From NCBI RefSeq assembly GCF_000825685.1, contig NZ_CCXM01000001.1, forward strand, positions 434,001-498,000: a stretch of DNA of 64,000 nt. Reading direction: 5' to 3'. The translations under genes were made by a program, and so were the position numbers. The stretch is from Rickettsia hoogstraalii. Its GTDB lineage: Bacteria; Pseudomonadota; Alphaproteobacteria; Rickettsiales; Rickettsiaceae. Shown here piece after piece: positions 2,222-58,696 of the stretch. The number at the start of each line of letters is the position of its first letter. The stretch's first letter is position 1. The notes below the pieces were generated by a model, which was not told the origin of the DNA, made no database searches, and saw nothing but the letters and a program-made list of their open reading frames with translations.

Positions 2222-2259
2222 GCGGAGCTTTGCTTATAGTACCGGACAGTTTTTACTTT

Positions 2260-4497: not shown

Positions 4498-6936
4498 ATG
4501 AAAGAATTTCCAAAAAATTATAATTTTACAGAAAATGAAAAAAAATGGCAGCAAATTTGGCAAGAGCAGCAAATTTATGCTTATGATCCAAATATTTCAA
4601 AAGAAGAAACTTATGTAGTTGATACGCCGCCTCCTACAGTTTCAGGGCAGTTACATATCGGGCATGTTTACAGCTATACACAAACCGACTTTATTGTACG
4701 TTTTCAGCGTATGATCGGTAAAAATATCTTTTATCCTATGGGTTTTGACGATAATGGTCTACCAACCGAGAGACTTGTTGAAAAGCAGAAGAAGATCAAA
4801 GCTTATAATATGTCTCGATCTGAGTTTATAAAAATTTGTGAAGAGGTAGTAGCAAGTGAAGAAGAGAAGTTTAGAAGCCTATTTAACCAAATAGCTTTAT
4901 CGGTTGATTGGAGTTTAGAGTACCAAACTATCAGTCCGTTATCACGAAAAATATCACAAATGTCTTTTCTTGATTTAGTCAAGAAAGGTGAAATTTATCG
5001 TAATGATCAGCCAATTTTATGGGATCCGGTAGATGGTACAGCTCTTGCCCAAGCTGATATTGAGGATAAGGAAAAAACCTCGTTCATGAATTATATTATT
5101 TTAAAAACCGAGCAAGGAGAGCCGCTTACTATAGCAACTACAAGACCTGAATTATTGCCGGCTTGTGTTGCCGTATTTTATCACCCTGATGACAAGCGTT
5201 ATAATCATCTAGCAGGTAAATTTGCCATAACTCCGCTTTTTAATGAGAAAGTTCCGTTGCTTGCCGATCCTTTAGTGCAACAAGATAAAGGCACAGGACT
5301 TGTTATGTGCTGTACATTTGGTGATCAAACGGATATTACTTGGTGGAAGACGCATAATTTACCTTTAAAAACTATTATCACTAAAAAAGGTACGATAGAT
5401 TTCCCTCATGATATTGCTATAGACGGATTAAAAATTAAAGAAGCTAGGACAAAAATAATAGATATTTTAAAAGAGCAGAATTTACTTACTAAACAAGAAG
5501 AGATAACTCATACCGTTAAATGTGCTGAGAGGTCAGGGGCTCCTCTTGAGATATTAACCGTACCGCAATGGTTCGTTAAAACTATATCACATAAAGAAGC
5601 GTTACTTAAACGAGCAAATGAGCTAAACTGGCGTCCTAACAATATGAAAATTCGTTTAGAGAATTGGATTAATGCCATTAGCTGGGATTGGTGTATTAGT
5701 AGACAACGTTATTTCGGTGTGCCTTTCCCTGTTTGGTACTCTAAAAGAGTGAGTGAAGAAGGTAAAATTTTATATGCCGATATTTCGCAGCTACCTGTCG
5801 ATCCATTAAAAGATTTACCTATTGGTTATAGTAAGGAGGAAGTAGAACCTGATTTTGACATAATGGATACTTGGGCAACAAGTTCCGTTTCGCCTCAACT
5901 TTCTACTCATGGCATTTCTGACGATTTCGCCGTTAATAAAGATAGACACGATAAATTATTTCCGATGGATTTAAGACCTCAAGCACATGAAATTATCAGA
6001 ACTTGGGCATTTTATACTATCTTAAAAGCTCATTTACACCAAAATACTTTGCCGTGGAAAAACATCATGGTAAGCGGTTGGTGTTTAGCTGAAGATCGAA
6101 GCAAAATGTCTAAATCTAAAGGCAATGTTTTAGTTCCTGAAAAGCTGCTAGAACAATACGGTTCCGATTTAATACGTTATTGGTCGGCAAATTCAAAACT
6201 AGGTGCTGATACCGCCTATTCTGAAGACGTTATGAAAAACGGCAAACGGCTTGTTAATAAGCTGTGGAATGCCGCTAAATTTGTTTCTATACATTTTGAG
6301 AAATTAAAAGATGAAGATAAACAAGAAAATCTTTTAGATATTAAAGAAAAAATCACTAACGAGTTTGATCAGTGGATGATTAATAAGTTAGTAGAATTAG
6401 TTAAGCTAGCCACAAATGAGTTACAAAACTACGAATATGCGAATGCTATGCATCTGACGGAAAAATTCTTTTGGGCGATATTTTGTGATAATTATTTAGA
6501 AATAAGCAAAACAAGAAGCTATGACAAGGAAAACAAAAACCCACAAGGACAATATAGTAGCATATTAACTTTATATCATGTTATGCAAATTTTACTAAAA
6601 CTATTTGCACCTTTCATGCCCCATATTACCGAAGAATTATACCAAATATTATATAGTGAAAATTCTATTCACGTTAAAGGTAACTGGGTTAATTACGGTG
6701 ACTTAAATTATGAAATCGATGCAAAAGGAGCAGAAGGACTGCTTGAAATCCTAGATATCGTCAGAAAATTCAAAGCTGAGAAGAATCTATCTATAAAAGC
6801 TCCGATAAAATTGCTTAAAGTTAGCGGCATAGTATTATCTGCAGAATTAACGGAAGATTTAAAAAACGTCACATCAGCGGAAGAAATACAATTTGAGGCT
6901 CAAGGTGAAAAGATTAAAGTCGATGTTATCCTTTAA
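4498..6936 (+). CDS. valS: Valyl-tRNA synthetase, short form
   Basis: Charges tRNA-Val with valine. The class I signature HIGH is at residues 53-56 ([12 protein letters not shown]) and KMSKS is near 536-540 ([11 protein letters not shown]). The editing domain segment [13 protein letters not shown] is present. At 812 residues it is much shorter than the about 950 of E. coli ValS and lacks an obvious long C-terminal coiled coil. The family literature describes rickettsial ValS as an archaeal-type enzyme; the [14 protein letters not shown] stretch is compatible with that, but I infer it and have not tested it. The last 14 bases overlap the next gene, so the two are probably co-transcribed. Confidence 0.96.
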
Positions 6937-17048: not shown

Positions 17049-17345
17049 TGTCATCCCGTGGCTTGACCTATAGTACCGGACAATTTTCAAAAAGCTCTCG
17101 ATGTCATCCCTGCGAAAGCAGGGATCTATGCTAAAAAAATCTTGATTTCAAAGATTTTTTTATTAGATAATTTTTTTCAAATAAAGCTTTAAAAAGCTTT
17201 ATTTGACTGGATTCTTGCTTTCGCGGGAATGACATAAAGTAAAAATTGTCCGGTACTATAGGCTTGACCACGGCATCCAGTTAAAAATACTAAAATTATT
17301 AGTATTTTTTATTGTTTTTATGGACCTAGTTAGCAAGCGAACTAG
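17049..17345. repeat. Outer palindromic element interrupted by a second element
   Basis: Starts GTGTCATCCCGTGGCTTGACC, is split after that, and resumes GGCTTGACCACGGCATCCAG after 17260. It ends with ACTAGGTGACAC near 17352. Uninterrupted copies of the same sequence lie at about 40720 and 51800. This repeat occupies the 390-base gap between the DUF2269 gene and clpX. Confidence 0.88.
17069..17260. mobile_element. 192-bp palindromic element with inverted ends and 9-bp target duplication
   Basis: Ends are a perfect 19-bp inverted repeat, TATAGTACCGGACAATTTT at 17069 and its complement ending at 17260. GGCTTGACC is present on both sides (17060-17068 and 17261-17269) but only once in uninterrupted copies of the outer repeat, as expected for a 9-bp target duplication. 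The inside is a TGTCATCCCTGCGAAAGCAG hairpin. No coding capacity. Confidence 0.85.
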
Positions 17346-17418
17346 GTGACACAGTGGGTTTTACCGGTCCACGCAACAATGCCTCCTCGCAATGACGGAA
17401 AAAACGATCCACACATAT

Positions 17419-34810: not shown

Positions 34811-34987
34811 CGCGTGGATAACTATAGTACCGAACAATTTTTATTCTATGTCATTCCCGCGTAGGCGGGAATCCAGAAAAAAAGTATAAGTACAGAAAAT
34901 TTTTGAAATTAAAAGCTTGATTTATCTCGCTTTATGCTGGATTCTTGCTTTCGCAGGAATAACATCGGTATCCATACAACAAGACCT
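34811..34987. repeat. Palindromic element, first of two near-identical direct copies
   Basis: CGCGTGGATAACTATAGTACCGAACAATTT flank (shown in part) then TGTCATTCCCGCGTAGGCGG ... CTTTCGCAGGAATAACATCG. About 177 bases, almost identical to 35207-35386. Confidence 0.88.
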
Positions 34988-40505: not shown

Positions 40506-40679
40506 TATATCCCGCATTTGATAAGGAAATAACCTAATATTTTGTTTCAATAGTTTCTAAACTACGGGCTGAGCATACTATATATTGTATATAATTACAA
40601 GCATCGCTGTAGTTTTTTTATAAAGTTTTAATAAATGTTATATTTTTATCACATTGGGGTTATGACACACGGGTCGTCA

Positions 40680-40956
40680 TTGCGAAGAGGCATTGCCCGC
40701 GTGGATCAATTTCACCTCTGTCATCCCGTGGCTTGACCACGGGATCCAACCTTTTATGTCATTTCCGCGTGGCATTGTTGCGTGGATACCGATGTCATTC
40801 CTGCGAAAGCAGGAATCCAGCATAAAGCGAGATAAATCGAGCTTTTAATTTCAAAAATTTTCTGTATTTATACTTTTTTTCTGGATTCCCGCTTTCGCAG
40901 GAATGACATAAAGAGCATTTACCGGTCCATGCAACAATGCCTCCTCGCAATGACGA
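40680..40956. repeat. Multiply nested palindromic elements
   Basis: CGTCATTGCGAAG...CTCGCAATGACG ends enclose GCATTGCCCGCGTGGATC/TCCATGCAACAATGCC arms, an uninterrupted GTCATCCCGTGGCTTGACCA unit near 40720, and a TGTCATTCCTGCGAAAGCAG hairpin. They fill the gap between the ompB promoter and the RelA-type gene. Confidence 0.85.
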
Positions 40957-40961
40957 AAAAA

Positions 40962-48831: not shown

Positions 48832-51746
<2,915 letters not shown>

Positions 51747-51754
51747 CTACTCGA

Positions 51755-51948
51755 TGTCATTCCCACGTGGCGTTGTTGCGTGGATCAATTTCGCCTCTGT
51801 CATCCCGTGGCTTGACCACGGGATCCAGTTAAAAATACTAAAATTATTAGTATTTTTTATTGTTTTTATGGACCCCGTGGTCAAACGAACTAGGTGACAC
51901 AGTGGATTTTACCGATCTACGCAACAATGCCACGCGGGAATGACATCG
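51755..51948. repeat. Three-layer nested palindromic elements
   Basis: Outer TGTCATTCCCACGTGG / CCACGCGGGAATGACA, middle CGTTGTTGCGTGGATCAATT / CGATCTACGCAACAATG, and inner GTCATCCCGTGGCTTGACCA ... AACTAGGTGACACAG. It shows two successive insertions into older repeats, between ligA and tgt. Confidence 0.85.
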
Positions 51949-51986
51949 AACAGGTTTTTCTAGGTCATATGATAAAACAAACCCTC

Positions 51987-53072
51987 TTAAGAATCAAAAT
52001 CAAAATCTTTACCTAGTTTAATATATTCTCTAATGCGGCTCATGAGGTTTTGAAAATATGTTAGATTATGCCACGTCATTAACATTGCTCCAAGTATTTC
52101 ACCGATTCTAACTAAATGATGCAGATAAGCTTTACTATAGTTTTTACAAGCAGGGCATAGGCAATCATGTTCAAGCGGCTCGTTATTATCGGCATATTTG
52201 CTATTGCGGATATTTACCGTGCCGTATTTGGTAAAAGCCTGACCGTTACGACCTGAACGTGTTGGGATTACACAGTCAAACATATCTATACCTCGGCGTA
52301 CAGCACCGATAATATCAGCAGGCTTACCGACTCCCATTAAATAGCGCGGCTTATTTTGCGGTAGAAAATCGGGAGCATAATCAAGTACTTTAAACATAAG
52401 CTCCTGCCCTTCGCCTACTGCAAGCCCGCCTATAGCATAACCCTCAAAATCGAGTCCTACTAAATCTTTAGCTGACTCCTCACGTAATTCTTCGTAAACA
52501 CTACCTTGAATAATACCGAATTGTGCATATCCATCTCGTTTAACAAAAGCATTGCGCGATCTATTCGCCCATCTAGTCGTAAGCTGCATAGAAGTTTTAG
52601 CTTCTTCAAAGGTTGCAGGGTAAGGCGTACATTCATCAAAAGCCATAGTGATAGTACTACCGAGTAAATGTTGTATTTCGGTAGAACGCTCAGGCGTTAA
52701 CATATATTTATCACCGTTAATATGAGAGCTGAAACTTACTCCCTCTGCAGTTATTTTGCGTAACTTCGATAACGACATTACCTGAAAACCGCCGGAATCG
52801 GTTAATATCGGCTTATCCCAATTCATGAATTTATGCAAACCGCCAAGGTGTGCTATACACTCGGCACTTGGCTGAAGCATTAAATGATAAGTATTGCCAA
52901 GGAGTATATCTGCTCCCGTTTCAACTACTGATTCAGGTAGCATTGCCTTAACAGTGCCTCTAGTCCCGACCGGCATAAAAGCAGGAGTGCGAATCTCTCC
53001 ATGTGCAGTTGTTATAACACCGCTTCTAGCTTTTTTATTCTGATGATGAATATTAAAAGAAAATTTTGACAC
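51987..53072 (-). CDS. tgt: tRNA-guanine transglycosylase
   Basis: Exchanges guanine at the wobble position of Asp, Asn, His and Tyr tRNAs for a queuosine precursor. Active-site markers are [11 protein letters not shown], the second catalytic Asp region [18 protein letters not shown], and the zinc site [19 protein letters not shown]. The length of 361 residues is typical of the bacterial enzyme. One substrate tRNA (tRNA-His) and the pathway gene queC are also in this window. Confidence 0.97.
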
Positions 53073-58429: not shown

Positions 58430-58469
58430 TGAATTTAATGATTTTTTATTTCGTATTACTTCTACTTTC

Positions 58470-58696
58470 ATAATACCAGACATTTTTTATTCTATGCCAT
58501 TCCCGCGAAAGCGGGAATCCAAAAAAAAGTATAAATACAGCAAATTTTTTAAATTAAAAGCTCGATTTATCTCGCTTTATGATGGATTCCCGCTTTCGCG
58601 GGAATGACAGCGAGTAGGTTTTTCGATCCATGCAACAAAACCCTACTTTTAGCTAGGATGACATCGAGATCTTTTTAAAGAATGTCCGGTACTATA
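58470..58696. repeat. Palindromic element with TATAGTACCGGACA-type ends
   Basis: Ends ATAATACCAGACAT and ATGTCCGGTACTAT surround ATGCCATTCCCGCGAAAGCG ... CTTTCGCGGGAATGACAG. The end sequence matches that of the mobile copy at 17069-17260. It abuts the mlaD stop codon. Confidence 0.85.

Follow-up and report, generated by a model that had tools for sequence, protein, structure and literature searches.

A palindromic MITE-like family of Rickettsia with probable 9-bp target duplications and a preference for the axis of hairpin repeats

Rickettsia genomes contain families of short repeated palindromic units known as RPEs (for example RPE4, TIGR03777), which are found between genes as well as in frame within genes. 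Among repeats of other bacteria, those of the REPIN/RAYT type depend on an HUH (Y1) transposase and are not known to make a target duplication. IS903 uses 9-bp targets and prefers symmetric sites with G/C ends. Tn5/IS50 likewise has 9-bp targets and favors symmetric sites with G/C at the ends (PMC1525189). The REP-targeting insertion sequences ISRm22 and ISPsy8 insert into chromosomal hairpin repeats at the axis of palindromy and are flanked by direct repeats of fixed length (6 bp and 3 bp); both are autonomous, and the hybrid direct repeats of ISRm22 have been put down to recombination between copies (PMC1525189). IS1272 of the IS1182 family also takes a hairpin structure as its target, but its inverted-repeat-replacing transposition swaps out the stem-loop without any duplication (PMC5678879). 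For RPEs, the table of a review has a question mark under target duplication (PMC2229807), and a paper on R. japonica leaves undecided whether the RPE-4, RPE-6 and RPE-7 sites are hot spots that took up inserts of different origins or the remains of one insert that diverged. Insertion of ISs at REP axes, hairpin targeting by IS1272 and MITEs are already known. A search of open-licence papers returned no report of target duplications for Rickettsia palindromic repeats or of the family described here, and no hairpin MITE family that targets the hairpin axis of another repeat.

The locus studied here lies in a window of 64,000 nucleotides from Rickettsia hoogstraalii, which is the whole stretch of DNA that was analysed. 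The initial annotation described a 192-bp element at 17069-17260 with perfect 19-bp inverted ends, which is correct to the base. It also described a 9-mer, GGCTTGACC, that flanks the element on both sides and occurs singly in uninterrupted copies of the outer repeat near 40720 and 51800. We confirmed that GGCTTGACC is present once each at 40730-40738 and 51809-51817, where it forms the middle of CCGTGG-CTTGA-CCACGG in the copies at 40726 and 51805. The element belongs to a family with ends that we call TIR1, and the end of a second family (TIR2) is located nearby. The features of the window are as follows.

17069-17260, plus strand: TIR1 MITE, orphan, non-coding, 192 bp (sequence, genome copies, fold)
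17069-17087, plus strand: left terminal inverted repeat TATAGTACCGGACAATTTT (end comparison)
17242-17260, minus strand: right terminal inverted repeat, identical to the left in 19/19 bp (end comparison)
17060-17068, plus strand: left copy of the target site duplication GGCTTGACC (one changed copy at orthologous empty sites)
17261-17269, plus strand: right copy of the target site duplication GGCTTGACC (sequence)
17049-17068, plus strand: left half of the outer hairpin repeat, broken at its axis; RPE-4-like as judged from similar copies (sequence, ortholog comparison)
17261-17352, plus strand: remainder of the outer repeat on the right-hand side of the insertion, with an approximate right boundary (comparison with the intact relatives at 40726 and 51805)
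17366-17383, minus strand: TIR2-like end GGCATTGTTGCGTGGACC (sequence, TIR2 end definition)
40726-40742, plus strand: empty intact target hairpin CCGTGGCTTGACCACGG (sequence)
51805-51821, plus strand: empty intact target hairpin CCGTGGCTTGACCACGG (sequence)
58469-58696, plus strand: TIR1 end pair (L029), 228 bp, left end diverged, no recognisable 9-bp duplication
2235-2248, plus strand: single TIR1 end, no paired partner end
34823-34836, plus strand: single TIR1 end with 1 mismatch, no paired partner end

The 192-bp element forms a single long hairpin, with a folding energy of -51.8 kcal/mol under DNA parameters (z -11.8), and none of 200 shuffled sequences folded as well. Its end sequence TATAGTACCGGACA matched the window eight times with up to 2 mismatches, compared with 0.28 matches expected from shuffles. 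The TIR2-like end at 17366-17383 suggests a TIR2-type MITE that has the outer repeat as its core and no visible left end; the focal structure is probably a TIR1 MITE within a TIR2-type MITE that has lost its left end.

Of 23 Rickettsia genomes, 19 contain TIR1 ends, defined as YATAGTACCGGACANTTTT with no more than 1 mismatch. When 174 genomes were sampled across the Rickettsiales, TIR1 was present in 12, every one of them Rickettsia, and in none of the 161 sampled genomes outside that genus. The exact sequence TATAGTACCGGACANTTTT was found in 32 stretches of a contig collection of 257 billion bases, where about 7 would be expected by chance (a rough count of 4^-18 per position on both strands); 28 of them are Rickettsia, and in the remaining 4 no inverted partner came within 2 mismatches. 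Organisms named in records that carry the exact pattern are, among others, Rickettsia australis, R. rhipicephali, a Bemisia tabaci symbiont and two beetle endosymbionts. TIR1 had no match in plasmids and none in viral contigs. Among 237 distinct ends, chosen on positions 2-14, T occupies positions 16-19 in 202 to 230, a table biased by a fetching pattern that favored T at these positions for most regions. As an independent check, exact 14-base ends followed by a base other than T at position 17 occurred at only 6 sites in 5 of the 23 genomes; the conserved end therefore extends beyond position 14. Past about position 20 the sequence is variable.

Paired copies were defined as TIR1 ends 70-450 bp apart within the fetched regions, excluding duplicates from named records (L225-L256), pairs with an intervening forward end and pairs no more than 20 bases from the end of a locus. 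This gave 73 copies, covering most TIR1 sites (14 of the 40 sites in genome G013 and a few others, such as G003:954976, lie outside the set), and 61 loci once orthologs were merged. Fifty-four of the 73 copies are 87-206 bp long without recognisable coding content. Five selected stop-free peptides from three copies had no NCBIfam match at E up to 1, four peptides from TIR1 copies gave one weak Pfam match far under the cut-off, and all eight Rfam matches were under their gathering scores. An open frame runs through one of the 73 copies, and that copy has no 9-bp repeat. TIR1 copies are short and non-coding, with terminal inverted repeats and a fixed 9-bp duplication, as MITEs are. Copies L063 (1001-1205, 205 bp) and L083 (1001-1087, 87 bp) are long and short forms at one orthologous locus that differ by the loss or gain of the middle part between two core hairpins; therefore, cores also shrink or grow in place.

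In L036 (G000:C1:590680-590846), TIR1 ends surround another hairpin core (GTCATTGCGAG...), as though one end pair could take up different cores. L010 (G000:C1:20413-20549) is a 137-bp copy with a variant end, TATAGTACCCTACG, and the 9-bp duplication ACCAACTCT; this end forms one MITE-sized pair and otherwise single sites, and is found in other Rickettsia genomes too. Two TIR1-like sites 1.9 kb apart (G000, 1189566 and 1191434) were rejected as MITEs, being located in a coding-looking direct repeat.

An exact 9-bp direct repeat was present at the boundary of 24 of the 73 copies, and 11 more matched at 8 of 9 positions. The only other exact direct repeat of 3 bp or longer was one of 8 bp in an A-rich run. 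When the boundaries were shifted by 1 to 6 bases in either direction, no copy reached 8/9, and random pairing of left and right flanks gave 6.7 such copies on average and never more than 14. Because 35 copies have the repeat at the true boundary and none at shifted boundaries, the 9-bp repeat is beyond chance. With orthologs merged, the duplication is found at 32 loci. Thus, when TIR1 ends were sought in the genome and its relatives and their flanks tabulated, the 9-bp signature of the focal element recurred across the genus.

The duplicated sequence indicates where the element inserts. The target hairpin is about CCGTGR-N5-YCACGG, and the duplicated 9 bases comprise the five loop bases and two stem pairs, which would place the cut symmetrically around the hairpin axis. 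The loops vary (CTTGA, TCAAG, ATAAA/TTTAT, ACAAG, CTCGT) while the CCGTG/CACGG stems are mostly kept, and either the stem sequence or the structure may therefore be read. Under a loose pattern, 26 of the 35 copies with duplications have a half-hairpin at each flank, 2 have one just at the left flank, 2 just at the right flank, and 5 have none (L055 and L074 with exact repeats; L076, an ortholog of L074, L065 and L106 with 8/9). Across all 73 copies, one or both flanks are half-hairpins in 53, and neither flank is in 20. Since the window contains only 4 intact hairpins in 64 kb, random insertion would strike one about once in ten thousand times; a looser pattern in 800 kb of genome G022 gave 178 matches on both strands, or roughly 90 hairpins. 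A hairpin is thus the preferred target of TIR1, not a required one. The insertion proposed in the initial annotation is supported, but the annotation missed that the target is a hairpin axis, that this target is reused, and that a second MITE family uses it also.

Orthologous empty sites were found at the focal locus and at two other loci. At the focal locus, genomes G002 and G001 have the outer repeat without the element and with one changed 9-mer (GGCTTGACT and GGCTTGTACC), and other relatives are without the outer repeat. Two copies of genome G005, one in a hairpin-type repeat (L101) and one in other DNA (L106), correspond to empty sites in G022 with one 9-mer each (GGTCAAGCG and CATAAGATT). 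Most other orthologous G022 sites are rearranged and uninformative. Copy L055 was considered as an empty-site case outside hairpins and rejected, as the ortholog in G001 has the insertion too and the site in G006 is rearranged. Empty sites already holding two 9-mers, which the initial annotation had named as evidence against insertion, were absent from all four comparisons; discrete MITE-like insertion with a 9-bp target duplication, as it had proposed, agrees with the single 9-mer at each of them.

Empty sites alone are no proof of gain over precise loss. It is conceivable that the relatives lost the element precisely between the 9-bp repeats, as direct repeats are generally known to allow precise deletion of what lies between them, and Amiri et al. 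in 2002 are said to have argued for RPE loss through flanking short repeats in Rickettsia. G001 and G002 may also be close kin, in which case one loss could serve both. However, loss at those sites would still need a prior insertion to make the duplications, and L101 and L106 add two further sites that are empty in G022. We therefore consider loss in place of gain unlikely, and favor insertion of TIR1 at these sites.

The initial annotation had suggested looking for a transposase whose terminal repeats match. No transposase with its own TIR1 ends was found in a genome-wide search for the PF01609 and IS701 types or within the wide TIR1 pairs; an autonomous partner sharing the ends was thus missing for TIR1, as is the case for many MITEs. 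Seven wide pairs were examined: two contain transposases (L126 and L095), three contain ordinary genes by Pfam (L060, L096 and L292) and two are about 500 bp (L115 and L293). The IS701-type transposase in L126 of genome G019, which is also broken by an IS630-type element, was taken for a passenger, because this type is nearly confined to G019 (130 matches, compared with 2 weak ones in a single genome of the 22 other Rickettsia) and because in L122 a TIR1 end runs directly into this IS. A broken IS256-family transposase in G005 (L095, 1888-3152) between TIR1 ends 4.3 kb apart also looks like a passenger, since inverted sequences unlike TIR1 closely bracket it (about 1855 and 3157). Around PF01609 transposases, searched in 7 Rickettsia genomes and matched in 4, there was no nearby TIR1 end with fewer than 2 mismatches, only scattered matches at 2-3 mismatches. 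The TIR1 transposase gene may be lost or unsampled.

The second family was seen at the focal locus itself. In G022, another insert with GGTGTTGTTGCATGG / CCATGCAACAACGCC ends occupies the same hairpin position and is flanked by GGTCAAGCC twice. In the fetched loci, a set biased because most were fetched for TIR1, 11 distinct hairpin halves run into a TIR2 end (at least 5 being focal-locus orthologs), compared with 66 that run into TIR1 and 70 intact hairpins. Among 50 TIR2 pairs from 864 kb of contiguous sequence and two IS loci, the 9-bp repeat was perfect in 7 and 8/9 in 7, with no repeats at boundaries shifted by 1 to 4 and a match of 6/9 or worse in 34. Of these 14 duplications, several are at CCGTGG-type hairpins and most at other repeats. 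CCGTGG hairpins form the core of some TIR2 MITEs, one of them in G022 block B at 105273-105435. The surrounding stretch of block B (about 105091-105530) is nested, with a TIR1-like end, a GGCATTGTTG-ended repeat, a GGCGTTGTTG-ended repeat with the 9-bp duplication CTTCGCTCC, and CCGTGG hairpins.

Genome G020 has two IS copies with TIR2-like ends about 1150 bp apart and an open IS5-family transposase (NF033579, 228 bits, cut-off 140). These copies (L215 and L216) have GGCTTTGTTGCATGG-type ends; their flanks do not match, and a duplication of their own was not seen. No solved structure matched the IS5 transposase. The IS is a likely autonomous partner for the TIR2 palindromic repeats that are common in Rickettsia, and its presence demonstrates a DDE system with 9-bp MITEs in the genus, with ends unlike TIR1. 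TIR2 has both the GGCTTTGTT-like ends and the 9-bp duplication of IS903/IS5-type MITEs; TIR1 has the 9-bp duplication, but its ends are unlike the GGCTTTGTT... ends of IS5-family ISs in these genomes. Could the IS5/IS903-like transposase that serves TIR2 also move TIR1? Both families have 9-bp duplications (at least 8/9 in 14 of 50 TIR2 pairs and none at shifted boundaries), TIR2 ends are located at the same hairpin point as TIR1, and the G020 IS carries TIR2-like ends. Nevertheless, the TIR1 and TIR2 ends look dissimilar by eye and a DDE transposase is as a rule specific for its own ends, which makes a shared transposase rather improbable.

Full copies without a direct duplication, which the initial annotation had held to count against insertion, do exist: 38 of the 73 paired copies have no direct repeat of 8/9 or better, next to the 35 that carry it. 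Five copies have perfectly inverted 9-mers (L117, L082, L060 at 5651-5856, and the orthologs L063 and L083), with GGCTTGACC at one boundary and GGTCAAGCC at the opposite one, or the corresponding pair for GAATAAATC. Such pairs are not given by simple insertion and probably arose by recombination across the two arms of the outer repeat. The two hairpins of the outer repeat are inverted relative to each other, so that recombination between arm copies with loss of the middle would give mixed or inverted flanks, and half-hairpin flanks of this kind were seen in L079, L291, L269, L117, L082, L060 (at 5651) and L063. Some of the 38 copies carry different half-hairpins, as recombination would give, and not all fit this. 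That homologous recombination or gene conversion between host repeats spreads TIR1 without any transposition, the 9-mers being parts of the outer palindrome, is nonetheless very improbable, for although the mixed or inverted half-hairpins in several copies indicate that recombination probably occurs, the direct repeat is fixed at 9 bp with none at shifted boundaries, is also found at five copies without hairpin flanks, and corresponds to a single 9-mer at orthologous empty sites.

Taken together, the results demonstrate that TIR1 is a discrete unit with fixed ends, exact 9-bp repeats, a preference for hairpin axes and empty sites. The reading that best explains them, to which we assign a probability of roughly 0.85, is that the focal element is a copy of a Rickettsia-specific TIR1 MITE family whose conserved ends, about 19 bp long, enclose a hairpin core, and which inserts at hairpin axes with a 9-bp duplication by means of a DDE transposase acting in trans. 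In this model the transposase would bind the TIR1 ends and make a 9-bp staggered cut centered on the hairpin axis, gap repair would leave the duplication, and later recombination between copies would produce the mixed or inverted flanks. Unlike ISRm22 and ISPsy8, the mobile unit is a MITE that is itself a hairpin and has 9-bp repeats, and its target is often the core of a MITE-like repeat. Unlike IS1272, TIR1 leaves the stem-loop halves in place and duplicates 9 bp, and its target duplication also separates it from repeats mobilised as REPIN/RAYT elements are.

The relationship to RPEs was examined with NCBIfam models. Five peptides from three outer-type copies other than the focal one (1440-1640, 51740-52000 and 40660-40960) were scanned. 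The peptide from 1440-1640 matched RPE4 (TIGR03777) with E 1.8e-4 and 21.5 bits, below the cut-off of 23.95. The two peptides from 51740-52000 touch RPE4 (E 0.18) in one case and the Wolbachia element model WPE (E 0.026) in the other, while two from 40660-40960 had no NCBIfam match. Two of the three outer-type copies thus touch RPE4 or WPE, all below cut-off, whereas the inner TIR1 element, unlike the RPE families, matches no RPE model in NCBIfam. Because the outer type is near the RPE4 cut-off and the inner element matches none, an orphan MITE family appears to insert into RPE-4-like hairpins. Judged from these sequences, the target would be RPE-4-like, and the moving TIR1 unit, which nothing in the scan marks as an RPE, would form a MITE family of its own. 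The initial annotation had concluded that RPE-like units move; MITE-like movement is supported, but with no NCBIfam match at E up to 1 the moving unit is better regarded as a separate MITE than as an RPE.

Palindromic repeats of Rickettsia have long been called selfish. With 32 duplicated loci, empty sites, a shared hairpin target and an IS that matches TIR2, their spread becomes a testable transposition problem. We tentatively propose, as a possibility somewhat short of even odds, that hairpins are the landing pad of a set of Rickettsia MITEs, in which at least two families with unlike ends (TIR1 and TIR2) choose the same axis and MITE-borne hairpin cores become targets in turn, so that palindromes nest and intergenic DNA grows. 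If so, part of the diversity of RPE-4, RPE-6 and RPE-7 would be the product of serial targeted insertion. Insertion into the hairpin of another repeat would be a plausible way for selfish DNA to persist while leaving genes unbroken.
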